A DNA stretch of 21,343 bases from a virus. Numbering within the stretch: position 1 is the first letter of the stretch; each line of letters opens with the position of its first letter. The translations under genes were made by a program, and so were the position numbers. The stretch is from positions 1-21,343 of IMG/VR virus record IMGVR_UViG_3300024357_000039. One strand, 5' to 3'. Below are positions 3,212 through 21,225 of the stretch, one piece after another. The notes beneath the pieces were generated by a model. The model was given only the letters and a program-made list of their open reading frames with translations. It had not been told where the DNA came from and searched no databases.

Positions 3212-3213
3212 GA

Positions 3214-4151: not shown

Positions 4152-4750
4152 CAGCCTGCCACCTCGATTGCGGTAATGGTGGAAATAGCCAGCGGAATGC
4201 CGTCATTGTCAGCGTCATAACCCATTCTATTTATAGTTGCAGTTGACGAAGCCTGAGTGGAACAATACACTTGATACGTTAAAGAGCTAGTAGAGCTAGG
4301 TGAGTCGAGATACGATAGATTTGCAGGGGCAGCGTGATATGTAGCATAAAGTTTTACAGCAGCAGAACATCTTGCTCTGTTACCGTTCGCGTCGCCTCTG
4401 GCACCAGTGATAATTGTGCCACCTTTAGCCAAATATATATATGAGGAATAATCGTTAGTCTGGTTGCCAACTGCACCAACGTTCACTAAAACCAAAATCT
4501 TGCTGGACGTAGACGAAGGGGTAATAGTTGCAGACAACCCCGTAACGGCTGCAGGACTGGAAGCAGTTGCTGTTGTAGTAAATGTATCAGTTTTAGTCGT
4601 ACTCACCACCTGCAAAATTGCACCGGCGTAGCCGATCTTCGCCGCAGTGACAGCATTAGCCGCAATGTCATCCGTGGTGATGCTTCCATCAGGCAGTCCA
4701 CCTGCTGAAAGCCCCGTAACTGTTCCTGATCCGTTGATCGTGATTGGCAT
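4151..4750 (-). CDS. Tail fibre/tip-like protein, third member of the fibre cassette
   Basis: A 199-residue Ser/Thr/Ala-rich protein. The N-terminus (MPITINGSGTVTGLSAGGL, then GSITTDDIAANAVTAAKIG) is a repeat-like fibre segment common in phage tail proteins. From about residue 42 it has a beta-rich domain (GAILQVVSTTKTDTFTTTA, then SATITPSSTSSKILVLVNV) that I recall from cyanophage and marine phage fibres. Its C-terminal domain is not related to the two paralogues downstream. It has the best ribosome binding site in the window (AGGAGG, five bases before the ATG) in a 12-nt gap after the long fibre gene, suggesting independent strong expression. The central DNA, about 4200-4600, is AT-rich. 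A receptor-binding or accessory fibre role is inferred. Confidence 0.75.
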   Translation of the reverse strand: MPITINGSGTVTGLSAGGLPDGSITTDDIAANAVTAAKIGYAGAILQVVSTTKTDTFTTTATASSPAAVTGLSATITPSSTSSKILVLVNVGAVGNQTNDYSSYIYLAKGGTIITGARGDANGNRARCSAAVKLYATYHAAPANLSYLDSPSSTSSLTYQVYCSTQASSTATINRMGYDADNDGIPLAISTITAIEVAG

Positions 4751-4762: not shown

Positions 4763-7459
4763 TTAAACAATCACCCAGGCAGAACCTGAGGGGATGGTCA
4801 CCGTGACGCCGGAGTTGATCGTGATTGGACCAGCAGTCATAGCGTTCTTGCCTGCAGTCAAAGTGTAGTTAGAGGTGACGGTCTGACTGTTCTCATAAAA
4901 CACATCATCCGTTCCTCCGCCAGTAGCTCCGCCAGCAGTACCCCAGCTCAGATTCCCAGCAGCATCGCTCTTCAGTGCATGCCCTGAGACCGTCGCATCA
5001 GCAGCAGGCAGCGTCCAGGTGACATTGGCAGCAATAGTCCCAGGTGCCTGGAAGGCGACCCAGTTCCCGCCATGCCCTGTTGCTTCGCCAAACCGCAGGT
5101 CACTTTGGTTGTCCAAGGTGACGTTGCCAGTCAGCGTGCCGCCAGTCAGGTTCAGCTTTCCGCCAAGACCTGTATCGACATAGCTCTTGGTGGCAGCGTC
5201 CTGAGCAGCAGTGGGATCTGTGACGTTGACGATCTTGTGGCTATTGAGATCGACCTGGTCGTCTAATACGACGCTGCCTGTGCTGCTGCTGATCGTCCGG
5301 TTCAGGACATCAAGGTTGCCGCCAAGCTGTGGCGTCAGGTCAGATGCCAGATCAAAAGCAATCGACCCGCTGGGGATGGTCACATAACCAGTCCGCTGGT
5401 CGACCGTCAAAGTCGAACCAACCTTGAACTTGCCGTTGTGGTCAGTGCTTGAGATCCAAACCCGACCATCGTTCAGGTCAACGACTTGGTTCGCCTCAAC
5501 AGGAACACCACCGTTCTCAGGCAGTGCGCCGTAGTTGGTGCCACTGCCCACGTATTCCATGGTGTGGCCACTGGTCGAGATCATCGACCGCAGGAAGAAA
5601 CTGACTGCATCACCCGTCGTGATGCCAGCTGCTAGGCCCAGGTTTTCAGATTGGTTGACTGGGTTGGGGCGGCTGATCGTTACCGTCCATCCACCACCAG
5701 AAGCAACAGCAGACAGGATCGGATAGGTGTTGGCGCCGACCTGGACCAGCATGTTTTCAGCAGGCCTAGTCGCATCACCAAACCAAGTGCCAGCAGCAGT
5801 TGGTGCGCCAATGGTGAAGGTCAGGTCGTTGGTGGCTGCATTGGCCGCTGCTGTCGCCGTAAAGATGGCAGTCGTTGAGCGACCATCAGCAATCAGGCCA
5901 TAGCGACCAAAGTCAGTGGTGCTAGCGCTGAGGTTGACCTGGCCACCATTCAGTGCCTTGACGTGATAGTGGTTGAAGAAGCCATAGGACGACGTCAGCT
6001 GGCCATAGCCGTTGTTGCAGACCAACATGCCCGGACCATCCAGGCAGATCTGCGTGAAGCTATCGACCAGGAACGACCGCAGTGGTGAAGCAGTAGCAGG
6101 CAGCGAGCCGTCGACGATGATGCCGCCACCTGTTGGAGCAGACGTCAGATCACCTGCAGTGCCAGGCAGGCTGTTGGGATTGAAGCTGCTGTTGTCGATC
6201 CCAGAGTCTGCGATGTTCGTGCAGTTCTGGATGTAAGGCGACTTGACGATGGTCGCATTGGGGAAGAAGCCAGCAACCCAGCCCTGTGCAGCAGGCAGGC
6301 CGAAGGTGGCGTCGTTGTCGATGGCATGGCCACCACGAACGCCAGTGGCCTTCAAACCAGCAAAGGTGAAGTTGGCGATGTAGGTGCCGCTGTTGCAACG
6401 GAAGATGATCGACGTCTCCGTCGCTGCTGTTGGGTGGATGAAGCAGCTACGGATGGAATCACCAACGATGGACAGGTTGGCCACCGTGATGTCGATTGGC
6501 AGCGTCTCTTGGTAGACGCCAGGTGCTACGCGAATGATGTCCCCTGCATTGGCAGAGGCCACAGCATTTTTGATGGTCTTCTTGGGGCTGATGATTCGGT
6601 GACCGTCATTGGCGTCATTGCCATTGGCGGCATCGACATAGATGACAGTGGCCTGGGCGTTGAAGGTGCCGCCCGAGGTGATGCCAGACCATGCACTACC
6701 AGTCCAGTAGGACAGGGTTTTGTTGACGTCGTTCTGCAGCCAGGTCTTGCCAACCTGCCAGCCACCGGCTGGGGCAGTAGGCAGGGTGGGGCTGACCACC
6801 ATGGTGTGACGACTGTCGTGAGCAGCAGTCGTGCCGATCTTGTCGTTAGCGCTGACCCAGGTTTCACCTGAGTCAATGGTGTCAGTGGTGTTATCCCAGA
6901 AGTTGGTATCGACGTAGCCCTTGGTGGCTGCATCCTGTGCATCAGTCGGAGTGCCAAGGCCGGTGACCTTGTTGTTCGACATGGCCAGGTTGCCAGTCAT
7001 GGTGTCGCCAGCTGAGGCGACCGTCGTCGTATCTACGTAGTTCTTGGTTGCTGCATCTTGAGCAGCAGTTGGGTTGGCGACATTCGTGATGCGCTGGCCA
7101 TTGGCAGTAGGCAGGCCAGTGGCAGGGTCGATGTAGACCGTTTGCTTGTTGTCATCATCCAGCTCCTGCTCTTTGTAGAGGTGCTGAAGATTGCTGGTAT
7201 CAAGGTCAGCGGCAACCAGGGTGGAGCCATCGGTGTAATCCACCAATGGCAGCAACAGTGGAGTAATGCGCCTGGTCTCAACCCGCACGCCATTGCCAGG
7301 AGCGCTGGCCAGTAGCACGGTGCTGTCGTTGACCCAGGTGTAAGCAGTGTCGACGTAGTTGACGTAGACCTTGACGTGTTCCTTCCTGATGTATGGGAAG
7401 GGAACGGTGAACTGAGTCTGCGAACCGTTGCCGGTGTATAGGGCGTAGGAGTAGGGCAT
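4763..7459 (-). CDS. Long tail fibre protein with T7 gp17-type N-terminus
   Basis: An 898-residue fibre (T7 gp17 is 553). Residues 1 to about 115 (MPYSYALYTGNGSQTQFTVP, then LDTSNLQHLYKEQELD) match the T7 tail fibre N-terminal domain that joins the fibre to the tail. Three 'PTxAQDAATKxYVDT' units lie at about 129-145, 171-187 and 749-764. They are typical spacer repeats of phage fibres. At about 268-310, YVDAANGNDANDG and IIRVAPGVYQE mark the start of a right-handed beta-helix (pectin-lyase-like) that may run to about 600. Residues about 625-710 (SGHTMEYVGSGTNYGALPE, then GRVWISSTDHNGKF) match a segment I know from T4-like cyanophage fibres. The C-terminus is Thr/Gly-rich. It starts one base into the upstream stop (TGATG), so it is coupled to the giant ejection protein gene. 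No intramolecular chaperone domain is visible. Confidence 0.88.
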   Translation of the reverse strand: MPYSYALYTGNGSQTQFTVPFPYIRKEHVKVYVNYVDTAYTWVNDSTVLLASAPGNGVRVETRRITPLLLPLVDYTDGSTLVAADLDTSNLQHLYKEQELDDDNKQTVYIDPATGLPTANGQRITNVANPTAAQDAATKNYVDTTTVASAGDTMTGNLAMSNNKVTGLGTPTDAQDAATKGYVDTNFWDNTTDTIDSGETWVSANDKIGTTAAHDSRHTMVVSPTLPTAPAGGWQVGKTWLQNDVNKTLSYWTGSAWSGITSGGTFNAQATVIYVDAANGNDANDGHRIISPKKTIKNAVASANAGDIIRVAPGVYQETLPIDITVANLSIVGDSIRSCFIHPTAATETSIIFRCNSGTYIANFTFAGLKATGVRGGHAIDNDATFGLPAAQGWVAGFFPNATIVKSPYIQNCTNIADSGIDNSSFNPNSLPGTAGDLTSAPTGGGIIVDGSLPATASPLRSFLVDSFTQICLDGPGMLVCNNGYGQLTSSYGFFNHYHVKALNGGQVNLSASTTDFGRYGLIADGRSTTAIFTATAAANAATNDLTFTIGAPTAAGTWFGDATRPAENMLVQVGANTYPILSAVASGGGWTVTISRPNPVNQSENLGLAAGITTGDAVSFFLRSMISTSGHTMEYVGSGTNYGALPENGGVPVEANQVVDLNDGRVWISSTDHNGKFKVGSTLTVDQRTGYVTIPSGSIAFDLASDLTPQLGGNLDVLNRTISSSTGSVVLDDQVDLNSHKIVNVTDPTAAQDAATKSYVDTGLGGKLNLTGGTLTGNVTLDNQSDLRFGEATGHGGNWVAFQAPGTIAANVTWTLPAADATVSGHALKSDAAGNLSWGTAGGATGGGTDDVFYENSQTVTSNYTLTAGKNAMTAGPITINSGVTVTIPSGSAWVIV

Positions 7460-10400
7460 CAGCGGTTACCGGGAGTGATCGACCAGGACTGAACTCCTGC
7501 CTGTTCTGGTTGGGCGGTAGCCCCACCGTACCGACGCAGGTATTCCTTTTCACCTTTGTCTGCTTGGATCACTGCTTCCTCCTGGGTGATGAGCTGACCT
7601 TTGGGTGTCGTGGCCTTGTAGACAGTCTTGGCCAGTTCCTTGTATCGCTGGATTTCTGCTTGCAAAGCAGCAGCGCGAAGGCTGACGAAACGGTTGGATG
7701 GACCTTCGATTGGCCAGGACTGGTACTGCTGAGAAGTGATCAGCTCCATCGCTGATTGCTGGAAGGTCCGGCCAAACTCATCCTTCACCGTGGCAAAGGT
7801 GATGACGTAGTCCTCCAGCTCGGTGGGGGTAAGACGCATCTCGGCACCGAAGTCAGCAGCACGAGGGCCAAGGAAGCTGCTGCCTTTACCGCTGAGGCGA
7901 GCCATCTCTTCATGTACTGGGGTCAAGGGTTGACGGCCCACCTGCATGGCAGCCATTGGGGTGAACTGCATCAGTGACTGCAGCCATGGCATCTCAGCAG
8001 GGATCTGCTCAGCACCAAGGATCCCGGTGGTCAGGATCGGAGCGCCGGTGATGTAATCCCTGCGAGCAGGCAGGTCGTTCGACCAGCCAGGCACTGCATT
8101 GCGCACTTCATCCAAGGTCTCCTGGAAGAAGCCCATCAGTCCACCGATGTCGCTTGGATCAACGGAGCGGGAGACGGGGTCCACTTCCCGGCGAGCAGCA
8201 CGCAGGGCAGAGCTGTAAGGCACCATGCTGGCTGCCAGGCGGGAGAAGTACCGCGACAGTGCATTGCGCTGGTTGGGACCGCTGATCACCTTGCTGGGGT
8301 TGAAGGCTGCTTCGTACAGCTCGTTGAAGCCCTGGAAGTAGCTCTTGCTCAATACACCACTGGTCGACATGCGGGCCAGGGTCAACACCAAGGAGCCGCC
8401 AAGGCGGTTGCGCTGCTCTGTCGACAGGCTGTTGGCGATGTCGGAGTAATCACCGATGGCACCGAAGAGGGTGGTCAGAGGTTCAAAGGCACGCATGGAG
8501 ATTGGCGTCACCCACTTGCCTTCCTCCTCATTCCAGACCTGGACGGAGTAGGGCAGGCGCCCTTCGATCTCAGTCCACTTCTGCTTGGCAGCAGGATCCA
8601 GGGGACCACCGCCGTTGAAGCGGACGTAGCCCATTGCTGATGCCATGGTTGCCATGGCCAATGCAGCGGAGCCTGTCGCTATCTCGCCAACAGCCCGATC
8701 CCTAGTGAAGGCGTCCTCGCTGGTGATGTCCCGCCAGAAGGTGTCAACGAAAGCAGCAGCAGGCGTATTGCGAGCAGCGGCCTTGATGATGTTGTTCGGC
8801 ACCCGGATGAAGGGTTGGATGAACTTGAAGGCGGGACCCACATAGCGGGCATTGGCCAGGGTATCCATCGCTTCACCAGGCAGGGAGCCGATGCGGCCAA
8901 TGGGCGTGCCTTCCGTCATCCATGCCGCCACCTTGTTCATGGCGGTGCCTTCATCGACGTACTGCTTGGCAAAGTCCTGCAGTTCCTGCTTCTCCAGCCC
9001 CCTTGCCAGGCCCAGCCGCACACCTTCGGCGTAGGTGCGTGGCTCCAGGTCGGCCCATATCGTGTCGGTGAAATTCACGGAATCCATGAACTTCTGAGCG
9101 TGCTGGCTTTCCATGTGAATGTCGGCCAGGTTTTTGCCGTTGATCACGGCATCCTTGACCGACTCTTCAGTCCTGGCCGCGGCGTATTGCTGCGCCCATT
9201 TCCAGGCCTCAGGACTCATGTCCTTCATGCCACGCTCAACTGCCAGCTCCATGCCACGAGGCAGGTGGCGGACATGCTCAAAGGCATAGCCCGCCAAGGT
9301 GGAGTTGAAGGTGTCGATGGTCAGTGCCAGGCGGGTGGCGCCAGTACCCAACACACGCCACAGGTGATTCGCCATTTGCCCGATGGGCTGCTTGGCGTAC
9401 TCCTCACCCATGTTCATGGTGTTGACCGTCCAGCCGGTCATTGAGTCCGGCCCTTGCAGCAGTTCACCTTGGGCTTCCTGCTTGGCAATCCGGTTGAGGT
9501 AATCAACCGTGCTGCTTTCCAGGTTGAACAACGACTGGCCTGCCTTGAACGCATGCCCTGCAGTACGCATGGCATTAGTCAGGTTCATCCAGTACTGCTG
9601 GTACATCAGCAGCGAGTACATCGCCCGCTTCATCTCACCTTGCAGCACACCACCAGCTGCTTGCTGCAGCGGCAGGCGGGCCAGGTTGAGCATGCCGTTC
9701 AGCAGGTTGGTGGTCATCGTTGCGCCACCACTGATCAGGTTGTTGGTGCGGAGCATCAACAAGCCATTGGTGCCAACCGACCTGGTGTCGTCAAAGGTCC
9801 GCCAGAACTTGGTGCGGGCCTGGCTGTCAGCACCAATGCTGACCAGCGTTTGGGCCAACGCATCAGCCGCGGCCTGGGCCTTGGGAGTGATCTCCCCGCC
9901 ATTGATCGCTTCAGTCAGCTCAGGGTCGATCTTGTTGGTGATCGTCTCCTCAATGGGCTTGGCCTGCTCAGCTTCCAGCTCTTGCTTGATCTGAGCGTCG
10001 ACGTCGATCTCCTGGCCAGGCTGCACATCGGTGGCGACAGGAGCCTCGGGGATCTCTGCGTCCTTGACGTTCTGATTGGCAGGGATGTCGTAATCCCTGG
10101 GGATCTGCATCTCCAGGCCTAGCTGACCCCAGGGGCGAGTCACCCGCATGATTGCCTGGTGAGCGGCCCTGCTGGACTCCGCTGCAGACACCAGACGAGC
10201 CAGGCGCTCCGATTCATTGAGGCCGTCGAAGTTGGCGCTGTTCAGCCACAGAGCAGCTTCTTGCGCAGCTTCAACCTGCTTCTTGTCGGCATAGGCCATG
10301 GCCCGGTTCAGGGCGCCTTGCTGGTACTCATCGAAGCCACGGGTCAGTGACTTCAAGCCAGCCATGATCGCTTCGCTGTCTTCACCATGACGGGCAAACC

Positions 10401-13400
10401 AGTTTTGGTTGAAGCGACGCACCTCGTCGGGGCTGAAGATCGGGATGCCGGATTCGGTGGCCCGATCAGGCAGCACCTTGGACATGGCATTCAGGCCATC
10501 GACCAGGTCCTCGCGCTTGGCGGTGTAGACCGTCCGACCAGAGGGTGACTGCACCTTCTGGAAGTTGTTGGCCATGAGGTCTTCCATGGTGACCTCACCG
10601 TCCAGCAGGGCTTGGCGGTTGACCTCCAGCTGCTGAGCAAAGCGACGTACCCAGTCGTCGTTGTTCTCAGGGCCGGCAGGGGGATCAACGGGAACAGGGC
10701 CCTCGGGCTCCTGGGGCATGACGCGAGAGCGGCCAGCAACGCCGGCTTCTTGCATAAAGAGCGATTCGCCGGGGGCACGACCTGCCATTTGGCCTTGGTA
10801 GGTGCGCTCAAAGACGTCCTCCCAGGTCTGGAAGCCATTGCCTTGTGCCCAGTTTTTGGTTGCCTCCAGGAACTTCAAGAACTTGTCAAACAAGCCCTTG
10901 ATGCCAGCGCTGGCCTTGATGGGGATGCCTGCTTTGCGAGACAGGTTGTAGACAGCTGCTGCTTCAGCGATGACCTCAAAGTCATCGGCATCAGCCATCT
11001 CTTCACCACCACGGGCGGCGATCTTCTCCAGCTCGGGGCGTGCCTTGCGGAGGACGGCGTTCTCCTGTGGGGTGAAGATCCGGTCGTTCAGGTAATGGAC
11101 GGCCTCGTGATAGCCAGTACCTCGCAGCTGGTGAGGCGTCTTGCCTGCAAGGGCAATACGGATCAAGTTGAGGGCAGGGTCGTACAGACCAGCTGAGCCG
11201 ATGTCGCTATCGGGCACAGAGTCAGGGATACCCCAATCACGACGAGCAGCAGCAAGCTCCCCAGGGGTCAGCTCGATGCGAGGCTCAAAACTGATCTTGG
11301 CTTCAGGCCCTGCAATGCGCTGAAGTTCAGCGCGTAGGTCATCAAGGATTTCACCTTGGACAACAGTCGGACGACGCGACAGCGGGGTCGTGAAGTCAGC
11401 AATCGCATCACGCATTTCATTGATGAGGCGTGCAACTTCTGGGCCTTCGGCTGCCTTGGCCTGTTCACTTAGGTCACGCAGGCGGCGGATGAGACGGCCA
11501 CCTTCCCCGACGGATCCGTAGTCGGGCATGCCAAGCCGTGCGCGGGCAGCGCCACCAAACCCTTGGTCAGGCAGGTCGATCAGGCCAGGCTGTGCATCCC
11601 TGGCTTGAGCCTTGATGGCAGCACGCACCTTGTCGCCATGGCTAGCAATTTCACGCAGGTCGTAGCCAGCTGCTTCAACAGCAGAGCGGAACTTGGGCGC
11701 AGCCTTGGAGACAGTCTTGACGTCATTGGCCAGGATGTAGGCCGCACGATCCAGGTCACTGGCAAAGCGCAGCTCGAACTGCTTGGAGCCGTAGCTGTAA
11801 CGCGGGGCTGACCGCTGCAGTTCATCCGGCAGACGGAATGCAGTAGGTGCAGCAGCAGGTGCTGTCGCCTCCAGTCGATCCACAAAATCGCGCTGGTTGA
11901 CGCCTGCCTCCTGCAGCTTCTGGAGGACTTCCGCCCGCCGCTCGGGAGGAAGGGTGGCCAGAGCCTTGTCCAGCAAGGCCTTGGTTTCTGCTGTTTGAGC
12001 GGGTGCAGGTTGAGCCTGTGGGGCCGGCGGAGCAGCGGGTTCAGGGGCAGCAGCAGCAGGCTGTTCCAATGGCAGCCGCGGCCCTTGCACCTCATCCTCA
12101 ATCGCCTGGCGCAGGCGGTCGATGTTTTCGTTGACGACGACAGCAGCAGTACGGCGACCCTTCACCTGGGCTGCCATTTCATTCAGCAGATCACGCACCG
12201 GCCCGGTGTAACCGGTGACCCGGTTAAACACCTCAACAGCAGCGGCGGCCTGCTCCCTTGCGGCTTGGCTGCCGGCGACGTCGATCACATTGCCAGCGGC
12301 TTCCAGGATCCCCTTACGACCAGGGCGTGCAGCCGAGGTCAAGGCAATCATTTCTTCCCGCAGAGCCTTGAAGGACTCAGTGCGGATGTCCAGCAGCTGG
12401 TTGAAGTTGGAGGTCCTGAACATGTCCTCCATGCCAGGCAGCACACCACCACCTTCAGGGCCAGAGGTCTGCGCAAACTTGGCCTCTTGCATGGCCTGCA
12501 GGATCTTCTCTGCCGACCACTTGCCCTTGCCAGCCGCTGCTGCGACGTCACGGATGACGGCCTCATCCAGCGGCTCAGAGCCCAGGGCGATGGCCTTGGC
12601 CATGTCCAACTTGCCGGTGACGCCCTTGTCGAAGATTTCCTGGGGCAGGCGGCTCAGGGGGATGGCCTTTTCAGCGACGGGCCCGCGGACATTGATGTTG
12701 CGCTGGGCCAGCTGGGCAGGGTCAATGCCCATGTCGCGCATGATCTTGGCGGCATCCCAGGGCGTACCCATGCCTTCGGCCATGTTTTCCATGGCCCCGA
12801 TCGCCCGAGCCTGCTCGGCAGTAGGGGCCTCGATCTCCCAAGTCAGGATGTTCTGCCGGCCAGAGCGCTGAGCCAGGGCAAGGCGGTTGTGGCCATTGAC
12901 CACATACAGCCGACCGTCGGCGGGATCACGCCAGACGCTGATGATCTTCCCAAACAGTGGGTCGTACTCAGCCGCTTCTTTCAGCGAACCGGAAACGCCG
13001 GTCTTGGTCAGGCGGCCTGCTTCCTTGAACTGGAACCGCTGGGGGTCGGTAGCGATTTCTGCCACCGGAGTTTCCCGCACTTGGGAATAAGAGGGCAGCT
13101 CGACACCACGAACCTCGGGCGGCACAGCGCCTGCGACATCAGGCACGGTGTTGGCTGCACGGGCAACTGCAACCTCGACGTCGTCGATGGCCTTGTTGTA
13201 ATCCGCTTCAGCCTTGGCTACGGGCTCCCAAGGATCAGCGATCTCGGGCATCTTGCCCTGCACTTCAACGCCCGTCTTCTCCCACATGGGAGTGCGGCGG
13301 CGTGCCTCATAGGCCTCAGCCACCTCAACGGCGCGGGGCTTGCCCTTTGGCGCTCCAGGTGCAGCAGCAGGTGGCTCAGCAATAACTTCTGCCGGTGCTG

Positions 13401-14238
13401 CCTTGGCCGTTGCATCAACGACCTGCTCAGCCGCAGGGGTGGCTGCCTGCCTTGCCTTCCACCAGTTGACAGTGGCGCGAGCTGCCAGGCCAAGGGATTC
13501 CACCACTGCATTGGCGGCAGGATCCAGCAGCAGGCCTTCAACGCCGTTCTTCCAACGGGCAGTCGACGCGGTGTCGTCATTCCGGGAGCGGACCAGGTCA
13601 AGCAGCGGGCCGCCAAGAGGCGTTCCGGTTTGTTGCTCCACCCACCGCAATGCGTGATCCGACAGCCGCTGAGGCTCAGGCTTGAAGGCAACGGCGCCAG
13701 TGACGAAACTTGCCGGAGCTTCCCTGACGGTGCCGACTGCCACCCGACCAACAAAGCCCTTTGCGCCAGGCGCTTGCGTCATGCGAGCAGCAGTGGCGCT
13801 CAATGCCTGACGTGCAGGAGCGGCGACTTCAGCAGCGGCTGTTGCACCAGGCAGACGGCTTGCTGCACCAGCCCCAGCACGCATGCCGCGCTTAACCAAG
13901 GCAAAACCCAGGCCACCCTGGATTAAGCCAGACAAGAAGCTCTCTGCAGGGTTGGCTTCTACCTTCGGCAGTGCAGGGAAAAGGCCAAGGATTGGCGCAT
14001 CAGGAGCACCTGGCTTGCGGGGGACACCGCCAAAGGTGCGCAGTTTGGAAAGCTCATCAGCCGGCAGGTTGCCCAGCAGTTCCTGAGCCAGGTCCCGAAC
14101 ACCTTTCGTTAATGCACGACTGGTGCTGAAGGGGATGGGTTGATAGCTGGGGCCAGGCTTCGGGAACTCCTTAGGGACAGAGACGTCGACAATCGACGCC
14201 CCGGTCTTGGGATCAGTAGTGACACCGTTGATGGGCAT
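7459..14238 (-). CDS. Giant gp16-position internal/ejection protein with ParB-like and zincin-like domains (polyvalent type)
   Basis: A 2259-residue protein in the slot of T7 gp16 (1318 residues), which is packaged in the head and ejected into the host. No T7-type N-terminal transglycosylase is visible. Seen in order: an Ala/Gly-rich N-terminus with a hydrophobic stretch at about 95-115; a ParB/Srx-like region at about 370-520 with VVNGHNRLALAQ (G449, H450, R452); a long helical part; a Pro/Ala linker at about 725-755; a small domain at about 795-880 (RYSYGSKQFELRFASDLD); an HEAVH zinc-peptidase motif at 1044-1048 with E1088/E1092 as possible third ligand; a hinge rich in acids; and a large helical C-terminal region, about 1430-2120, with one hydrophobic segment near 1850 and the motif YSSALRAARREVDPVSR. 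The last region resembles large polyvalent-protein-associated domains. The start is supported by AGGGG upstream. Catalytic activity is inferred from motifs only. Confidence 0.85.
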   Translation of the reverse strand: MPINGVTTDPKTGASIVDVSVPKEFPKPGPSYQPIPFSTSRALTKGVRDLAQELLGNLPADELSKLRTFGGVPRKPGAPDAPILGLFPALPKVEANPAESFLSGLIQGGLGFALVKRGMRAGAGAASRLPGATAAAEVAAPARQALSATAARMTQAPGAKGFVGRVAVGTVREAPASFVTGAVAFKPEPQRLSDHALRWVEQQTGTPLGGPLLDLVRSRNDDTASTARWKNGVEGLLLDPAANAVVESLGLAARATVNWWKARQAATPAAEQVVDATAKAAPAEVIAEPPAAAPGAPKGKPRAVEVAEAYEARRRTPMWEKTGVEVQGKMPEIADPWEPVAKAEADYNKAIDDVEVAVARAANTVPDVAGAVPPEVRGVELPSYSQVRETPVAEIATDPQRFQFKEAGRLTKTGVSGSLKEAAEYDPLFGKIISVWRDPADGRLYVVNGHNRLALAQRSGRQNILTWEIEAPTAEQARAIGAMENMAEGMGTPWDAAKIMRDMGIDPAQLAQRNINVRGPVAEKAIPLSRLPQEIFDKGVTGKLDMAKAIALGSEPLDEAVIRDVAAAAGKGKWSAEKILQAMQEAKFAQTSGPEGGGVLPGMEDMFRTSNFNQLLDIRTESFKALREEMIALTSAARPGRKGILEAAGNVIDVAGSQAAREQAAAAVEVFNRVTGYTGPVRDLLNEMAAQVKGRRTAAVVVNENIDRLRQAIEDEVQGPRLPLEQPAAAAPEPAAPPAPQAQPAPAQTAETKALLDKALATLPPERRAEVLQKLQEAGVNQRDFVDRLEATAPAAAPTAFRLPDELQRSAPRYSYGSKQFELRFASDLDRAAYILANDVKTVSKAAPKFRSAVEAAGYDLREIASHGDKVRAAIKAQARDAQPGLIDLPDQGFGGAARARLGMPDYGSVGEGGRLIRRLRDLSEQAKAAEGPEVARLINEMRDAIADFTTPLSRRPTVVQGEILDDLRAELQRIAGPEAKISFEPRIELTPGELAAARRDWGIPDSVPDSDIGSAGLYDPALNLIRIALAGKTPHQLRGTGYHEAVHYLNDRIFTPQENAVLRKARPELEKIAARGGEEMADADDFEVIAEAAAVYNLSRKAGIPIKASAGIKGLFDKFLKFLEATKNWAQGNGFQTWEDVFERTYQGQMAGRAPGESLFMQEAGVAGRSRVMPQEPEGPVPVDPPAGPENNDDWVRRFAQQLEVNRQALLDGEVTMEDLMANNFQKVQSPSGRTVYTAKREDLVDGLNAMSKVLPDRATESGIPIFSPDEVRRFNQNWFARHGEDSEAIMAGLKSLTRGFDEYQQGALNRAMAYADKKQVEAAQEAALWLNSANFDGLNESERLARLVSAAESSRAAHQAIMRVTRPWGQLGLEMQIPRDYDIPANQNVKDAEIPEAPVATDVQPGQEIDVDAQIKQELEAEQAKPIEETITNKIDPELTEAINGGEITPKAQAAADALAQTLVSIGADSQARTKFWRTFDDTRSVGTNGLLMLRTNNLISGGATMTTNLLNGMLNLARLPLQQAAGGVLQGEMKRAMYSLLMYQQYWMNLTNAMRTAGHAFKAGQSLFNLESSTVDYLNRIAKQEAQGELLQGPDSMTGWTVNTMNMGEEYAKQPIGQMANHLWRVLGTGATRLALTIDTFNSTLAGYAFEHVRHLPRGMELAVERGMKDMSPEAWKWAQQYAAARTEESVKDAVINGKNLADIHMESQHAQKFMDSVNFTDTIWADLEPRTYAEGVRLGLARGLEKQELQDFAKQYVDEGTAMNKVAAWMTEGTPIGRIGSLPGEAMDTLANARYVGPAFKFIQPFIRVPNNIIKAAARNTPAAAFVDTFWRDITSEDAFTRDRAVGEIATGSAALAMATMASAMGYVRFNGGGPLDPAAKQKWTEIEGRLPYSVQVWNEEEGKWVTPISMRAFEPLTTLFGAIGDYSDIANSLSTEQRNRLGGSLVLTLARMSTSGVLSKSYFQGFNELYEAAFNPSKVISGPNQRNALSRYFSRLAASMVPYSSALRAARREVDPVSRSVDPSDIGGLMGFFQETLDEVRNAVPGWSNDLPARRDYITGAPILTTGILGAEQIPAEMPWLQSLMQFTPMAAMQVGRQPLTPVHEEMARLSGKGSSFLGPRAADFGAEMRLTPTELEDYVITFATVKDEFGRTFQQSAMELITSQQYQSWPIEGPSNRFVSLRAAALQAEIQRYKELAKTVYKATTPKGQLITQEEAVIQADKGEKEYLRRYGGATAQPEQAGVQSWSITPGNR

Positions 14239-14241
14239 TGC

Positions 14242-16983
14242 TTAAATCCCCTGCCGCAGCAGTCTCATGAGCTGATCGTATCGACTGCCAAAGATTCGTC
14301 TCCCCTCTGCAGCGCTTATCAGTTGCTGCCTGGTGTAACCAAAGACCCCCTCGTATTGGCCTGGCGCTTTGGCGATGTCGACGATGGGTTTGTTGCCTGC
14401 AATCGCAGAACGATTGATCAGGTTGGCCGCCACTTCCAACTTGCCTCGTGTCGTGGGACCAGCCTCCGCCAAAGCAGTAAATGCCAAGGCGCTGAGGTCC
14501 TGCTCAGTCAGCTTGCGAGCCCTGGCAATGGCGCGAGGGACAACCTGTGGATTGAAGTCAAAGAACCAGTTCTCCCGTGGGTCGCTCTGGTAGTCACCAG
14601 GCCGCTTGTTCTTGATCAAGCTGACGCCCCTGAAGGAGTTGGCGCCACGCAGATCCCGGATGACACCAAGGAGGCTGGCCGATCCAGGCGTTATCTGCAT
14701 CGCAGACGCCGGTGGCGCCACCACGTTCAAGGCGGATTCAGTGACACGACGCACTGTCTGGCTTAACCGCATGGCCAGGTTGGCGTTGGGGTTGATCATC
14801 GCCAGGCCCATTGAGGTGCCACCAGATGCCGGTTGAACAGGATCGGCAAAGCTGATCTTCTGCCCATTCAGCTGCTGAACACGACCCTCGTATTCCTTGG
14901 GGAATGGAACGCCTGGATAGACGTTCTTCCATTGATCCAAGAAAAACTGAGCAGGCTTGTTCTGGTAGCCGGCCCGCTTGATCATCAGCTTCATTGGCTC
15001 GCTGAGCTGACCCTTGTCCAGGAAGGTGTTCAGGTTCTGCAGGTAGACGTTGGGTGGGAACAGAATGCCGTTCTGCACCTGCTGCTGCAGTTGGTAGTTC
15101 TTGGCCCGATTGCCGGGACCCATGCGGCCAAGGATCCCAAGGCCATCCGACCAGGACTGGGGCGACTGATAGACGGGCTCAGGCTTGACGCCTGCAGCAG
15201 GTGCCGCCTTGGTGCGCTTGGTCTCGCTGTCTACGAACGAGTCCAGACGTGAGCGCAGCTCAGATACGGGGACATTGCCAGCTGCCCCAGCACGGCGGAT
15301 GCCTTCAATGCTGGCGTCAATCTCAGCCCCGCGTTGCACCAGGCGACGTCGTTCGCCGACGGTGAGGGTCATGCCGCCTTCAGAGCCAGGCCGCTTCATG
15401 GCAGCCATCTCTTCTTGCATCAGCAGCTTCTTGGCTTCCTTCGCTGCATTGACGAAGGGTCGGGCATCAGCTGCTTGCAACTGCCGGTAGTTCTCAATCA
15501 ACCGACGACCTGCCTGTGGATCCATTAGGCCAGCCCGAACCAGCCCCTCGACCCTCGGGATCTCGACGTTGGGGTCCTTGTCGTAGGAGAACAGGTTGTT
15601 CCGCTCTGTTTCGTCCTGCTGAACGCGGGAAACAAAGCGGCCAGCTTCGGATGCCGAGGTGATCGCTGCCCTTGCCGAGGCCTGCTGTTCCTGCGGTAGG
15701 CCATAGGTGGCAGCCATGGCGCTTGCAGCGGCCTGGTCTCTCTCTGCGGGGCTCAGGCTTGGGTCGCCAACCCGGTACTGAGTAACCAGGTCCTGGCCAA
15801 CATCCTGTCCTTCTTCCTTCTGGAAGTAGTCCAGCTTCTCGTTGAAACCTTGGTAGGTCGTCATCAGCTGCTCAGCCAGCTGGATCTGACCCGACACGCC
15901 GCCTTTAGCCCCGAGCTGATCAGTCAGTCGTATGCCATTGGGTCCTGCCGTGAGGCCAGCAAAGACCTGCTGCGCTTCGGCGGACAGGTAAGCCCACCGT
16001 TTGCGATCCAGCTTCCCGTCTGGGGTTAGTGATCCGGCCAGCACCGCATCAGCCATCCACTTGGTCATGTTGCCGACGTGCTCCTGGTACTTGTCGATGC
16101 CCAGGCTTTGGCGAGCAGCAGTCAGCTGCTGGCTGATGTCCGCAATAGCGCCAAGGCGGTCGACCTTCTGCGCATTGAAATGGCTGACGATGTTGTTCTG
16201 CGTAGCGACACTGGCGTTCCGGGATTTCCACGCCAGGTGGTCAGAAGCCTGCTGCCGATTCATCTCGGCGTACTTGGCCTCAATTTGCGGAGCCATCTCC
16301 GCATACAGCACCGGGTCGTTGGGGATGCGGAACAGCGACGTCTGCGCTGATTGCAGCCTTGGGTCACCCAATGGGATCTGATCCCTGGGGACGCCACCGA
16401 TGTCTGCTGTCTGCGACCACTTGCCGACAGCGGTATTGATGTCGTCTCGCAGTAGCGCCTTGTTGTTGTACCGATTGGCGTAGGCCAGCTGTAGCGGGCT
16501 CAACGCCTGGACCTTGGCGTAAGCCTCAGCAGCACCGGCATCACCAGCTTGAGCCTGGCGGTACAGCTGATCACGGAGTTCCGCCAACTGCTGGCCTGGG
16601 TACTTGGCCTGCAGGTCAATGGCAAATTGCTGGCCAATCAGCTGGGCACGCTTGTCGTCAGCTTTCAGCTTCTCGACGTACTGCTCGCCAAAGGACTCAA
16701 GGACTGGGTTGAAGCTACCCAGTGCCTTGGCCAGGTTTGCCATGTCCTGATTGGCGGCAGGTAGTTCAGGCGGAGCGAACATCCGCGGTGCGCCACCAAC
16801 AGTCGGGGCACCGGTCTGCTGGAACAGCTCTACCGGCGCCGCCTGCGGCTGAAGGCCAGGCTGGTTAATCGTCGCCTGAGCCAAGATGCCGGGAGTGGCC
16901 ATCTGCTCAGCGGCACCCATGAGCCGTGCCGGCGTAGCGCGGTCAGTTTCGCCAAAGGTCTGACCGGTAGAAAGACGTGCCAT
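14242..16983 (-). CDS. gp15-like internal virion protein with C-terminal cell wall hydrolase domain
   Basis: A 913-residue protein in the position of T7 gp15 (747 residues), a core and ejection protein that helps form the channel across the cell envelope. Most of it is helical and Gln/Ala-rich, as expected for an ejection protein. The last 85 residues differ: LSALAFTALAEAGPTTRGK, then VAANLINRSA and APGQYEGV, match the pattern of SleB/CwlJ-type hydrolases (Hydrolase_2). E840 is the likely catalytic acid and 874-877 (PGQY) the conserved late motif. That enzyme would cut peptidoglycan during DNA entry, the role that T7 assigns to the N-terminus of gp16. GGGGG lies seven bases before the ATG, and only three bases separate it from both the upstream and downstream genes. 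The order and length make the gp15 call secure. The hydrolase call is good but by eye. Confidence 0.83.
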   Translation of the reverse strand: MARLSTGQTFGETDRATPARLMGAAEQMATPGILAQATINQPGLQPQAAPVELFQQTGAPTVGGAPRMFAPPELPAANQDMANLAKALGSFNPVLESFGEQYVEKLKADDKRAQLIGQQFAIDLQAKYPGQQLAELRDQLYRQAQAGDAGAAEAYAKVQALSPLQLAYANRYNNKALLRDDINTAVGKWSQTADIGGVPRDQIPLGDPRLQSAQTSLFRIPNDPVLYAEMAPQIEAKYAEMNRQQASDHLAWKSRNASVATQNNIVSHFNAQKVDRLGAIADISQQLTAARQSLGIDKYQEHVGNMTKWMADAVLAGSLTPDGKLDRKRWAYLSAEAQQVFAGLTAGPNGIRLTDQLGAKGGVSGQIQLAEQLMTTYQGFNEKLDYFQKEEGQDVGQDLVTQYRVGDPSLSPAERDQAAASAMAATYGLPQEQQASARAAITSASEAGRFVSRVQQDETERNNLFSYDKDPNVEIPRVEGLVRAGLMDPQAGRRLIENYRQLQAADARPFVNAAKEAKKLLMQEEMAAMKRPGSEGGMTLTVGERRRLVQRGAEIDASIEGIRRAGAAGNVPVSELRSRLDSFVDSETKRTKAAPAAGVKPEPVYQSPQSWSDGLGILGRMGPGNRAKNYQLQQQVQNGILFPPNVYLQNLNTFLDKGQLSEPMKLMIKRAGYQNKPAQFFLDQWKNVYPGVPFPKEYEGRVQQLNGQKISFADPVQPASGGTSMGLAMINPNANLAMRLSQTVRRVTESALNVVAPPASAMQITPGSASLLGVIRDLRGANSFRGVSLIKNKRPGDYQSDPRENWFFDFNPQVVPRAIARARKLTEQDLSALAFTALAEAGPTTRGKLEVAANLINRSAIAGNKPIVDIAKAPGQYEGVFGYTRQQLISAAEGRRIFGSRYDQLMRLLRQGI

Positions 16984-16986
16984 GGC

Positions 16987-17724
16987 TTAACCCCCGTACT
17001 GTTTGACGCCTTTGAGCATTTGGTCGAACGAATCCACCTTGGGCGGTTGAGCCGCCTTGAGCTTGCCGATGGATCCAGCAGTGCTGAGGCCAGTGCTGAC
17101 ACCACTGAGAACAGCGGATGCACCTTGAAGGATGTACGGCGTTGCGCTTGGCGCCGCCTGGTAAATCGGTTCAATCGGATCAATGACCGGCTGCTCCAGA
17201 TACGGCTGCTGACTGGCCAACCTGCTGCCACGCTGCGCCGCAGCACCCATCTTCTGTTGCTGCGTTTGCGCTGTGGTGAAGGCCAGGTTGCGCTCAGTGG
17301 CGTAATCAAAGACCGCCTGCTGCCTGTAGTAGTCCGCGATCAGGTTGTCAACCGTGGCGCCCAAGCGGCCAGTTGCCCTGATCTCGCCCATGCCCCTTTG
17401 GGCGGCAAGCCCCGCTTCCCGTTGCTTCTGTGCAGCGGCTTCCTGCTCCTGCAGTAGCCGCAGGTTGAGCTGTGAGATGTCGTTCTCATAGGCCCGGTCC
17501 GCCAAGAACCGGTTCTGTTCCATGATCGCGGACTGCTGCTGAGCCTTCAGCTTTTCAAAGGAGCGGGCTGATCCCGCCTGCATCTGCTGGAACTGATAGC
17601 TCTGCTGCGCCTGCGCATTGGCGGTCGTGACGTTTGCCTGGGCCTGCTGATAGGACGCAACGCTCTGTGCAATGCCAAGGCCAGCCGTCAGGACACCAAG
17701 AGTGATCGAGACGGGTTCACACAT
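16987..17724 (-). CDS. gp14-like internal virion protein
   Basis: A 245-residue protein in the T7 gp14 slot (196 residues). It has an N-terminal hydrophobic segment at about 5-22 (VSITLGVLTAGLGIAQSVA), a long Gln/Ala-rich coiled-coil region at about 25-170, and a second Gly/Ala/Ser-rich hydrophobic segment at about 197-220 (ILQGASAVLSGVSTGLSTA). In T7, gp14 leaves the virion first and inserts in the outer membrane. The two apolar segments flanking helices are consistent with that. The ATG overlaps the end of the gp13-like gene by 8 nt and has a GAGGA site just upstream. Confidence 0.85.
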   Translation of the reverse strand: MCEPVSITLGVLTAGLGIAQSVASYQQAQANVTTANAQAQQSYQFQQMQAGSARSFEKLKAQQQSAIMEQNRFLADRAYENDISQLNLRLLQEQEAAAQKQREAGLAAQRGMGEIRATGRLGATVDNLIADYYRQQAVFDYATERNLAFTTAQTQQQKMGAAAQRGSRLASQQPYLEQPVIDPIEPIYQAAPSATPYILQGASAVLSGVSTGLSTAGSIGKLKAAQPPKVDSFDQMLKGVKQYGG

Positions 17725-18226
17725 GGCTCATCCTCACAAACTCCAGAAACGTCAGGCCCTCATGCCCATAGTTTGAATGCTTTGCGATGAAGGTAAAGCC
17801 CATCCACTGAAGCCATTTGACATGAACGACGTTGCGGGCATCGACGTAATTGAAGAGGACGTCATAGTCCCCCATGACCCGAGCGAGCCAGGTCCTGGCC
17901 TGCCGTAGGAACTGAATGCTATTTGGCTTGTCGTCTACCAGTTCATCTGTGGCCAGCATCCAGACCCTGCCCAGCCGGTCGCCTTGATCAACTACGCCCC
18001 ACATGGCGATTGGGTTGCCGCTTCTGCCAACGATTGTCATGCAAGGACGGCTCTTGAAATAACAGAACAGCAGTGCATCAGTAGGTGTCTGCCCGCAACC
18101 GGCCATAACTTCCGAAACGTCCTCCTGCCGCATGTTGAACGCGACAGGGCGGACGTCCTTAATGTCAGAGCGCCGGCAGTAGCTCGTCACATGCGACCGG
18201 CTCTGGAGTGATACCACCCTTCCCAT
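17717..18226 (-). CDS. gp13-like internal virion protein, GNAT-fold (DUF2833-like)
   Basis: A 169-residue protein in the T7 gp13 position (138 residues), between tail tube B and the gp14-like protein. The C-terminal part (FNYVDARNVVHVKWLQWMGF at 125-144) has the typical last strand-helix of GNAT acetyltransferases, and phage gp13-like proteins belong to a GNAT-like family (DUF2833). Whether it acetylates anything is unknown. In T7 the protein is needed for virion assembly. The longest frame starts at ATG 18226 and overlaps the TTB gene by 40 nt with only a weak GCGGA site. A GTG at 18190 would give a 4-nt GTGA overlap and a 157-residue protein, and may be the true start. Confidence 0.85.
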   Translation of the reverse strand: MGRVVSLQSRSHVTSYCRRSDIKDVRPVAFNMRQEDVSEVMAGCGQTPTDALLFCYFKSRPCMTIVGRSGNPIAMWGVVDQGDRLGRVWMLATDELVDDKPNSIQFLRQARTWLARVMGDYDVLFNYVDARNVVHVKWLQWMGFTFIAKHSNYGHEGLTFLEFVRMSHV

Positions 18227-20613
18227 TCCGCTGACTGCAGTCTGCAGGGTAAGGCGCTGCCATTTGCAATCTGAATCTTGGCGTCAATGTTCTGCGTCAT
18301 CACTGGAACGCGGAACTTGCTGGTCGCAACATTGATGGCCCCAAGCAGGTCCCCGTCACCGGGGTGGATGCCGTTATAGGGATAGGTGAAGGTTGAACGC
18401 CCTTTAGGGGTGACCTTGATTTCAAAGTGCGAGGACTGGTCGAAGATCATCGTCCAGGTCCGCAGTTGCAGGCGCGGGCCGCCAACCACTGCAATGCCAC
18501 CACCAGGCGGCTGCTCCTTGATGTACTGAGTGCTGAACTCATAGAGCATGTCGTACAGCTCACCGACGTAGAACTTGGCGTTGGTGAGATTGCCGCGGAC
18601 TACCAGGGTGCCATTGCCACCAGCTCCACCGGTCAAGGTTTGACTGATCGGCACGATGACCTGGCCGTGCTGGATGGTGTTGCCAGCAAAGAAGCGACCG
18701 ACCACCACCATCGAGCTGTTGGCTGCAATGGGGTACGGCAGGGTGATGGTGCTTTGGACGTCCAGGCCGGCTGGGTTGGTGAGGGCTACGGAGCAGCTGG
18801 CCTCAGTGGTCTTGCGATCCAGCAGCACCTCAATGCCAGTGCCGCTGTCCACGTTCTCGGGGCGGAGGATCACCTTCTCCAGGTAGACCCCATCGCTGTA
18901 CTCAACGATCAGGTACAGGTCGCTGTCGATCATGTCGGCGCCAAGGATCGTCTTATCACCCTTGGCTTCCCAGTAGGACCAAGCGGATTGCAGCTTGGTG
19001 TCGTCCTGGAAGAAGAACTTATAGAGGTAGACCCGCTTGGGCTGGTCTTTGCTGATGGCCAGGATCGTCTCTTCCGACGTGGTCGCCACCAAGGTGCAAA
19101 GGTTCTTCGGCACGAACCGTGGCACCGACGACGTCACTTCCTCGGAGATCGGCACTGGGCCGCTGGCGTCAGGCAGGAAGAACTCCCGCAGGCCGGTGAA
19201 GTCGCCCTTGGGGACGGAGAAGTAAATCGTCCGGCCAACGCCCACCGGATCGACGGAATCGACCATCTCAAAGGATGTCACCGGCGTGATCGTTGCGCTC
19301 TTGGGCGTCAGGGCGATGCCGGTACTGGTGCCGCTGTCCAAACGGAACTGACCATGACGGCTGAAAAGCAGCAGGACATTGGCAAAAGCCAGGCTGCTGA
19401 TCAAGAAGTTGATCTCCCGGCCACCGGTCGTCAGGTCAATCGGGTCGCTGTCGACGATGGTCTGTACGGTTTCCGGCCAGAACCGGTCGTAGCTGTCAGC
19501 TGCAGACAGGATGACGTTCTCATCCGCCAGTAGGCACAGGCGGTTGCGGAACAGATTGACGTTCTGGATGGTGCTGCCAACAAAGCTGGGGTTGGGAGCA
19601 GTGTCGGCGTCACCTGCTACGCGAGCAGACCAATCGAACTTCTTGAAAGTGAAGGTGCCATTGCTTTCCCGCACCAGCACATGAGGCATGGTGGTCGGGT
19701 CGAACTTGTAGGCGATACCTGGGGCAACGGTCTCCCGCCATACGCCATGGCCGGTGCCGCTGCCTGCGTTGGTTTCAAACTTGACGTAGTAGTCATCCAG
19801 CCTGGTGGCAGCAGAGCCCTGGATCTTGATGATGAAGCCATGCTCCGCCCTGGTCGGCAGGTCGGAAAGCGAATCAGCGACGCCCTTGAGAGCAACGATC
19901 ATCTCGCCGCTACGGCTATCAATGGTCGACAAGGTGTAGTCAGTGCCGTCGTTCTTGGTGATCATCACGTTGCTCTCGTAGCTCGTGATGGTCCAGCCAG
20001 CGCCAAGGGCTGCGGAGAGGCTGTTCTTCAGGTTGGTGGCAACTTCAACAACGCTCGGGACAGAGCCACCGGCATTGGCAGTGGTGTAGGTGACGCTGGT
20101 GCTGTTGACCGTGATGGTGTAGGTCGTTGAGTAATCAGCGGCCTTTATGAACACCATTGACTTGGTGCCCCAGGTAGGGGACAAATCGCCGCCACCCGTC
20201 AGCATCGCCACCGTCTTTTCGCGGTTGACGATGAAGGTGTAGTCAGCCACCGATGCCACACGGAACACGGTGCTTGGTTCACCAGTGATGTCCAGGTAGC
20301 CGGTGCCATCAGGCTTGGCAACGGTCTTGACGCTGCCGTCCATCCCAAAGACCTTGATGTCGTTATCCAGGATCAGCACCAGGTACTGGATGGTGCCGTC
20401 ACGGTCGACGATGGTCGTGAAAGGCCGGCCAGTGCCAGCAGTCCCGGAGAACAGCTTGCCGATGTTGTAGCTGGGAGGACGCTTCTTCAGGCCTTCCACC
20501 GGGGAAGGCATGCAGTTGACGACCTGCTCAGCCTGAGAAGCCAGGCGCAAAGCAGCCGGCTGCTGACTGACCCCATTGATCAGGTTGGGGATGGAGCTGC
20601 TGACAAGAGGCAT
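18187..20613 (-). CDS. Tail tubular protein B (T7 gp12-like)
   Basis: An 808-residue protein, close to T7 gp12 (794). The start MPLVSSSIPNLINGVSQQP is the family hallmark (S7-P19), and the rest is a beta-rich propeller-like protein without enzymatic motifs (for example SADSYDRFWPETVQTIVDSD). It forms the nozzle at the tip of the tail tube, to which the fibres attach. It follows the TTA gene by three bases, with no strong ribosome binding site, so coupled translation is likely. No internal stop or frameshift was seen, and the length and order make this call secure. Confidence 0.95.
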   Translation of the reverse strand: MPLVSSSIPNLINGVSQQPAALRLASQAEQVVNCMPSPVEGLKKRPPSYNIGKLFSGTAGTGRPFTTIVDRDGTIQYLVLILDNDIKVFGMDGSVKTVAKPDGTGYLDITGEPSTVFRVASVADYTFIVNREKTVAMLTGGGDLSPTWGTKSMVFIKAADYSTTYTITVNSTSVTYTTANAGGSVPSVVEVATNLKNSLSAALGAGWTITSYESNVMITKNDGTDYTLSTIDSRSGEMIVALKGVADSLSDLPTRAEHGFIIKIQGSAATRLDDYYVKFETNAGSGTGHGVWRETVAPGIAYKFDPTTMPHVLVRESNGTFTFKKFDWSARVAGDADTAPNPSFVGSTIQNVNLFRNRLCLLADENVILSAADSYDRFWPETVQTIVDSDPIDLTTGGREINFLISSLAFANVLLLFSRHGQFRLDSGTSTGIALTPKSATITPVTSFEMVDSVDPVGVGRTIYFSVPKGDFTGLREFFLPDASGPVPISEEVTSSVPRFVPKNLCTLVATTSEETILAISKDQPKRVYLYKFFFQDDTKLQSAWSYWEAKGDKTILGADMIDSDLYLIVEYSDGVYLEKVILRPENVDSGTGIEVLLDRKTTEASCSVALTNPAGLDVQSTITLPYPIAANSSMVVVGRFFAGNTIQHGQVIVPISQTLTGGAGGNGTLVVRGNLTNAKFYVGELYDMLYEFSTQYIKEQPPGGGIAVVGGPRLQLRTWTMIFDQSSHFEIKVTPKGRSTFTYPYNGIHPGDGDLLGAINVATSKFRVPVMTQNIDAKIQIANGSALPCRLQSAEWEGWYHSRAGRM

Positions 20614-20616
20614 GGC

Positions 20617-21225
20617 TCAACGCTGCAGGGCCCGGCTGGGCATATAGGTCATGAATACAGAGGTGTGGTTCGGATTGCCACGCAGCATGTTGTTCTGGCT
20701 GACGTAGGCCTCTTCCTCCAGGAACAGCGCCCGCGCCTCTGCTTCTGCAGTGATGTTGATTTTGCTCAGGTCTGCACTGCCCAGGATTGATTCCTGCAAA
20801 TGCCTGCCGGCCTTGACGGCGATGTACTGGCGGGCGTGCTCAGGCAGTTCGTCCCACTCCAGCATGTAGGTCACATCAGCCTTGAAGGGCTGGGTGAACT
20901 GGTAGGTATTGGCGCGGCGGTCGTAGAGCTTGGCGCCGCGCTGCACCACATCCAGCGATGGGTAGTTATACGGATCGACGACAACACGGCTGACATTGGG
21001 ACCCACGGCCACTTCCTTGGTGGCGGCGTCTGGGGTCATGTCCCGCTCGTAGTCAGTGTTGAAGGACCAGCCGTCGCTTTGCACTTTGCGGCTGATGTCT
21101 TTGAGCATTTCTTCGGCCTGCTGAGCGAGGCCGTATTGCCCAGCAAGACTGTTGACGGGCGCCTCGCCCATCATCTGGAGGACGCGGTTGATCGCTTCCA
21201 GGTAGGTGGTGCGAGCTAAGGCCAT
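20617..21225 (-). CDS. Tail tubular protein A (T7 gp11-like)
   Basis: A 202-residue protein, close to T7 gp11 (196). The N-terminus (TTYLEAINRVLQMMGEAPVN) and the middle (DISRKVQSDGWSFNTDYERD) are typical of tail tubular protein A, which makes the ring joining the portal to the TTB nozzle. Immediately upstream lie the capsid-downstream terminator and a short leader. The start ATG at 21225 has only a weak GAG eight to ten bases before it. The downstream TTB gene begins three bases after the stop. Confidence 0.95.
   Translation of the reverse strand: MALARTTYLEAINRVLQMMGEAPVNSLAGQYGLAQQAEEMLKDISRKVQSDGWSFNTDYERDMTPDAATKEVAVGPNVSRVVVDPYNYPSLDVVQRGAKLYDRRANTYQFTQPFKADVTYMLEWDELPEHARQYIAVKAGRHLQESILGSADLSKINITAEAEARALFLEEEAYVSQNNMLRGNPNHTSVFMTYMPSRALQR

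Follow-up and report, generated by a model that had tools for sequence, protein, structure and literature searches.

A T7-like phage ejection protein with a ParB-like fold and an exchangeable zincin-like domain

Introduction

Why should a phage protein in the position of T7 gp16 be 2259 residues long and carry motifs recalling ParB and the zinc peptidases? In T7, gp16 has an N-terminal transglycosylase (PMC8954989) and lacks a ParB or zincin part. Its N-terminal part is periplasmic, and its C-terminal part (gp16-C) extends into the cytoplasm and is DNA-binding (PMC8954989). The protein considered here was first picked out from the letters of the DNA and their open reading frames (the sequence-only reading), and was thought to resemble polyvalent proteins in its C-terminal region. 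The window analyzed, that is, the whole stretch of 21,343 nucleotides, contains a T7-type operon (Table 1), and its gp16-slot protein was compared with 130 distinct reading frames collected in two IMG/VR scans and one scan using the whole protein.

Results

Genomic context of the gp16-slot gene

The 2259-residue product of positions 7459-14238 was confirmed, and its gene was placed on the minus strand, a detail not given before. According to Pfam and PHROG matches, the minus-strand order is tube-nozzle-gp13-gp14-gp15-2259-residue protein-fibre. Because of this surrounding gene order, together with homology to T7-like internal virion proteins, the assignment to the gp16 slot made in the sequence-only reading is right. 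A single-subunit phage RNA polymerase and a T7-type tail fibre (T7 tail-fibre domain) are encoded by all long relatives tested (10/10), which places the group among Autographiviridae-type phages. By tblastn coverage, the nearest named relatives are the Prochlorococcus P-SCSP1 phages. Relatives of the ParB region are also carried by three cyanobacterial MAG contigs (L207, L210, L211) and, along with the Prochlorococcus phages, hint at cyanobacterial hosts. Cyanobacteria are said to be poor in polyvalent proteins (PMC5512222).

Elsewhere in the window, a 5'-3' exonuclease (154-906; phrog_107, 1.2e-57) is encoded on the plus strand, against the direction of the structural genes, and three small minus-strand genes past the tail fibre (2618-3840 and 4151-4750) are fibre- or tail-tip-like, two of them matching phrog_29482. 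A long plus-strand ORF (11995-13926) within the gp16-slot gene is presumably an artefact, an open frame that arises antisense to GC-rich coding DNA.

Table 1. Features of the structural operon and of its gp15- and gp16-slot proteins, in window coordinates
Feature	Position	Strand	Evidence
Tail fibre (gp17), T7 N-terminal domain	4763..7459	minus	PF03906 9.9e-42
gp16-slot ejection protein with polyvalent insert, 2259 aa	7462..14238	minus	ORF 7459-14238; operon order
gp16-type internal virion (ejection) half, residues 1200-2259	7462..10641	minus	PHROG 6651 2.8e-27; tblastn to 'internal virion protein D'
Exchangeable cassette region (approximate), residues 745-1180	10699..12006	minus	DNA identity profiles, alignment
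Zincin metallopeptidase domain (predicted), residues 963-1161	10756..11352	minus	Model, structural neighbours, profile, conservation
E1088, predicted third zinc ligand	10975..10977	minus	62/63 conserved; on helix after HExxH helix
HEAVH, residues 1044-1048	11095..11109	minus	
Small conserved module LPDELQRSAPRYSYGSKQFEL..., no assigned function, residues 800-896	11551..11841	minus	
Pro/Ala-rich linker, left edge of swap region, residues 711-760	11959..12108	minus	
ParB/Srx N-domain and helix-turn-helix M-domain (predicted), residues 383-600	12439..13092	minus	Foldseek 6.8e-7; VIA Z 10.8, 2.1 A over 92; phrog_21 6e-39 over 382-553
NGHNR motif at ParB/Srx phosphate-binding box position, residues 448-452	12883..12897	minus	
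N-terminal region conserved with backbone, no peptidoglycan-hydrolase match, residues 1-340	13219..14238	minus	
gp15-slot internal virion protein, 913 aa	14242..16983	minus	Position and size
Hydrolase_2-like (SleB-type) peptidoglycan hydrolase domain, residues 812-913 of gp15-slot protein	14245..14550	minus	
gp14-like internal virion protein	16987..17724	minus	PF24072 3.6e-12
gp13-like protein	17717..18226	minus	PF11090 1.7e-6; phrog_308 2.4e-36
Nozzle (gp12)	18187..20613	minus	PF25675 5.5e-243
Tail tube (gp11)	20617..21225	minus	PF17212 2.3e-42

An ejection protein with an added segment

Sequence and profile searches of the whole 2259-residue protein against Pfam, NCBIfam and PDB returned nothing usable, so that structure prediction and family-built profiles were needed. 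No transmembrane segment of the protein exceeded the threshold used. In its second half, the PHROG 6651 (internal virion protein) match spans residues 1802-2068, and residues 1715-2220 match by tblastn 'internal virion protein D' and unnamed proteins of roseophages, cyanopodoviruses and a Desulfovibrio phage. These sequence matches show the second half to be homologous to internal virion proteins of T7-like phages. The proposed likeness of this C-terminal region to polyvalent proteins did not hold, as Pfam found no LPD domain and the T7-like internal virion match was found instead. Many phage polyvalent proteins end in an LPD38 domain; for this half, LPD38 was considered and found unsupported, its hhalign probability being <1%. 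Sequence comparison of the C-terminal half and of the gp15-slot protein with solved ejection proteins detected no homology. Related gp16-slot proteins (S-RIP2, 7B11-B, PHROG 6651 profile) are 1320-1375 residues long, which makes the window protein longer by about the size of its ParB-to-zincin segment; its description as far larger than T7 gp16 is therefore correct in kind.

A ParB-like domain

The fold of the first added domain was predicted with AlphaFold2 for residues 345-745, from an alignment restricted to the window and IMG/VR loci; mean pLDDT was 58, reaching ~70-87 across most of the ParB core. Foldseek matched this model to ParB with a probability of 1.00, and the VIA superposition listed in Table 1 is with Caulobacter crescentus ParB. 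Noc, KorB, sulfiredoxin (Srx), SerK and SbnI followed among the structural matches, and the alignments to Noc, KorB and Myxococcus xanthus ParB extend to approximately model residue 245, through the helix-turn-helix domain. The stretch VVNGHNRLALAQ, cited earlier as ParB/Srx-type, occurs once, starting at residue 446. NGHNR and N485 occur unchanged in all aligned ParB regions (18/18), and an arginine box (GERR/GxxR type) is present. GERR is the canonical box of chromosomal ParB, from which the GHNR box of this domain differs. None of the Pfam ParB models matched, ParB_N (PF02195) and ddrB-ParB (PF18763) giving no match at E<=10, and membership is claimed for the modeled domain at the level of the ParB/Srx superfamily only.

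At that level, the ParB/Srx claim of the sequence-only reading is supported by a significant fold match, the kind of check that this reading had itself named. Its more specific proposal of a nuclease/ATPase-like activity is not supported; with the helix-turn-helix of canonical ParB, KorB and Noc, the domain suits a role as an NTP-gated DNA-binding module no less than one as a nuclease. The model suggests binding of NTP and DNA, with nuclease or NTPase activity no more than possible.

In a 'portal protein' family (PHROG 21), the C-terminal extension is matched by the same region, and in Ruegeria phage 45A6 (L212) it is found inside a giant 3912-residue protein, so the ParB domain recurs in other large phage proteins.

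A predicted zincin domain related to those of polyvalent proteins

HEAVH occurs once, at residue 1044, and H1044, H1048, E1088 and E1092 lie where the sequence-only reading had placed them; at the composition of the protein, 0.007 HExxH occurrences would be expected by chance. Among 63 zincin domains (non-redundant at 90%), H1044, E1045 and H1048 are each identical in 63/63, and most columns apart from these and E1088 vary. When very unequal zincins were aligned, including other types with 21-33% identity to that of the window, ten columns were invariant, with H1044, E1045, H1048 and E1088 among them. Conservation of catalytic residues across such divergent domains argues for the predicted enzyme activity.

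The AlphaFold2 model of residues 930-1170 (pLDDT 74) runs from helices through three strands to the HExxH helix and on to the helix with E1088. The structural neighbours listed by VIA are nearly all HExxH metallopeptidases, led by lethal factor (Z 6.9), PPEP-1 (6.4) and plasmid ArdC (6.4), with a SprT-type protease (6.2), selecase (5.4) and IrrE (5.0) below them. These fold scores are middling, the best Foldseek E-values being 0.15 (PDB) and 1.3e-3 (BFVD). A profile built from the zincins of Pfam-recognized polyvalent proteins matches residues 963-1161 with 69.8 bits (E 1.3e-20 at a database size of 1000) and an hhalign probability of 99.9%. Its sources were four polyvalent proteins having LPD38 or LPD39 together with InPase, LPD1/3/5, SNF2 and methylase, or ART-PolyVal domains (up to 2e-21). 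For the predicted zincin, the sequence-profile evidence is thus stronger than the structural scores, and both agree with the zinc peptidase first proposed. The Pfam model MPTase-PolyVal (PF18818) has no match in the window at E<=10; it also misses two Pfam-recognized polyvalent proteins (L083, L090).

Exchange of the zincin among relatives

ParB was found in 57/60 full-length relatives with an ejection half, and ParB together with a zincin in 54/60. Between them, a small module is kept, also in split-gene forms, for which no usable Pfam match was found and which is swapped independently of the zincin. Pairs of close relatives delimit these exchanges. L009 and L014 mostly share 87-99% DNA identity across the gene (81% in one 50-codon block), but only 41-54% (about 45%) over codons ~700-1240, where a HEVVH-type zincin in one stands against a HEAFH-type zincin in the other, the two sharing ~20-25% identity. 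Between L013 and L022, strong divergence is confined to codons ~900-1200 (39-62%), with the zincin alone swapped, and between L004 and L028 to codons 750-950, with the small module changed and the zincin unchanged. As judged from such comparisons, the zincin is an exchangeable cassette, recombining while the backbone stays nearly identical. This diversity of cassettes could be neutral mosaicism.

Other relatives have a different enzyme or none in this place. L023 lacks a zincin and has an ADP-ribosyltransferase (ART)-like module (DUF3990, 8e-6; ART-PolyVal, 7e-4; both under curated cut-offs), L154 likewise has an ART-like module (a PARP-type match of 0.007 and an ART-like reading of the sequence), and L153 has neither zincin nor ART, a short linker being all that is present. 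L018 has an ART in addition to a zincin, and in L114 an ART takes the place of ParB. The segment also occurs apart from the ejection half. In Nohivirus S31C1, ParB (2e-49), the small module and the zincin (7e-33) form a separate gene located between the gp15-slot gene and a 1145-residue gene preceding the tail fibre. A Sphingomonadaceae contig lacks the ejection half and has the ParB-small module-zincin unit, and ParB plus ART occur on a Cyanobium contig.

A peptidoglycan-hydrolase-like domain in the gp15 slot

The C-terminal 102 residues of the gp15-slot protein show 76-100% identity among its relatives, even where the remainder is ~32% identical. They match the gp15-slot C-termini of the cyanopodoviruses S-RIP2 (3e-5) and 7B11-B (8e-4), the latter annotated as an endolysin; against Hydrolase_2 (PF07486), these two score 8e-4 and 4e-4, respectively. 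The S-CAM4 endolysin reaches 6e-8 with PF07486, but just 0.1 with the window domain, and PF07486 has no direct match to the gp15-slot C-terminus of the window; the Hydrolase_2-like label is given because of the matches of the cyanophage relatives. In other relatives, this slot contains M23 (5.6e-10), M15 (4e-4), glucosaminidase (1.9e-19) or SLT_3 (8.9e-14) domains. The end of the gp15-slot protein is itself a second swap slot (L014, L017, L029, L036), with Hydrolase_2-like, M23 + DPBB, M15 + DPBB, glucosaminidase and SLT versions. A shift of the gp16 peptidoglycan enzyme to gp15 has already been described (PMC8954989), also for PhiM1 (PMC11440229). The idea that ParB-like and zincin-like motifs stand instead of a transglycosylase is thus right for the gp16-slot gene, where Pfam has no such match, but in the operon a hydrolase-like domain ends the gp15-slot protein.

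Discussion

A probable polyvalent protein within an ejection protein

Several disparate domains are joined in one chain of 2259 residues, namely a ParB fold, a zincin and an ejection half, with an ART-like module in relatives, and the zincin is homologous to those of recognized polyvalent proteins. With moderate confidence, we consider that a polyvalent protein has been fused into a T7-like ejection protein and is delivered into the host, with its middle part in the cytoplasm and its zincin or ART acting on host proteins. An effector segment of ~850 residues would thereby be built into a gp16 ejection protein. Its slot and homology suggest that the protein is packed in the capsid and exits ahead of the DNA. 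The ParB-zincin part would then reach the cytoplasm, as T7 gp16-C does; since this segment directly precedes the gp16-C-like half, cytoplasmic delivery is the likeliest reading, although the periplasmic location of the N-terminal part of T7 gp16 means that the membrane side reached is not certain. The ParB domain would bind nucleotide and DNA, probably the incoming phage genome. The zincin, or the ADP-ribosyltransferase of some relatives, may act on host proteins, most likely defence factors, in the first minutes of infection, and cassette swapping would then track changing host targets.

The zincin could also be a processing protease acting on its own ejection protein, either at assembly or following entry, and so freeing ParB from the channel-forming half. 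Self-processing has been predicted for the metallopeptidases of polyvalent proteins and of P1 DdrB (Iyer 2017; PMC5512222), and the position of the zincin, right at the junction of ParB part and ejection half and flanked by Pro-rich linkers, would suit it. However, Nohivirus retains the zincin though its halves are already separate genes, and L023, L153 and L154 have no HExxH although their ParB is still joined to the ejection half; cleavage is therefore neither the sole reason for the zincin nor required. Changing external targets would more readily account for exchange between zincins of ~20-25% identity, and N4 virion RNA polymerase, with such a domain, is packaged uncut (PMC5512222). We regard this alternative as rather unlikely, yet as one to be taken seriously. 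An effector is preferred to an obligate self-processing protease because the cassette can be exchanged, can give way to an unrelated enzyme or be missing, and persists in split genes. The zincin could be both at once.

A purely structural role, in which the ParB and zincin folds are catalytically inert modules for packing, DNA binding or encapsidation in a larger ejectosome, would agree with the middling structural scores of the zincin and with the finding that the metallopeptidase-bearing region of N4 virion RNA polymerase is needed for encapsidation (PMC5512222). It is improbable, given that the small set of positions invariant at 20-30% identity includes the catalytic residues, a conservation that inert folds do not need, and that the cassette is absent in L153 and replaced by a different enzyme fold in L023 and L154. 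Least probable is an attack of the zincin on the cell envelope at entry, opening the wall in place of the T7 gp16 transglycosylase. The zincin does sit in the protein that carries this transglycosylase in T7 (PMC8954989), but predicted dedicated peptidoglycan enzymes occupy the gp15 slot of this operon and of its relatives, and the zincin groups with polyvalent metallopeptidases.

Comparison with known systems

The closest precedent among polyvalent proteins is P1 DdrB, which combines a ParB-superfamily domain and a C-terminal zincin in one head-packaged protein predicted to be injected (PMC5512222). DdrB, however, has no part in an ejection channel, and its ParB family (PF18763) is not matched by the window protein, which differs further in the helix-turn-helix after the ParB fold, the fusion to a T7-like ejection half and the swapping cassette. 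With T7 gp16 and T7-like internal virion protein D, it shares gene position and the homology of its second half. The N4 virion RNA polymerase of Schitoviridae is also a giant ejected protein with a gp16 role and a HExxH domain (PMC12633501; PMC5512222), but it has an RNA polymerase where the window protein has its ParB domain, and belongs to another phage family. The gp16-slot protein of P-SCSP1 (MPP-C) has the same architecture, with a HESFH zincin, at ~31% identity across the matched parts, and differs in that an SLT-type enzyme ends its gp15-slot protein. From size and position alone, the authors of P-SCSP1 guessed an internal virion role for these genes, which were left unannotated (PMC9860041). 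In the PhiM1 ejectosome, the octameric gp15-role ejection protein has a lysozyme-like domain at residues 718-903, and no ParB-zincin part is described in the accessible text (PMC11440229).

Polyvalent proteins with ParB and zincin (P1 DdrB; PMC5512222) and a HExxH domain in the ejected N4 polymerase (PMC12633501) were thus already known; new is the zincin of an ejection protein as an exchangeable cassette. No paper using 'polyvalent protein' together with 'internal virion protein' was found among the openly licensed papers searched, and an earlier description elsewhere is possible.

Significance

Polyvalent proteins were proposed from sequence in 2017 and are mostly untested; one is now placed within the well-understood T7-type ejectosome. 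The phages concerned include cultured Prochlorococcus isolates, and annotation is gained for large virion proteins that had defied annotation by their authors. Cassette swaps that occur in nature, along with cassette-free and split versions, are ready-made comparisons for asking whether ejected enzymes fight host defences. More tentatively, the ejection protein may be a modular delivery chassis in a widespread T7-like lineage. Its backbone, with a ParB-type domain for NTP-gated DNA binding, would be fixed, and recombination would refill its slot with one or another unrelated zincin or ADP-ribosyltransferase against host defences, in the manner of polymorphic toxins but within the ejectosome. 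If so, protein effectors of these phages would enter the host ahead of any phage gene expression.
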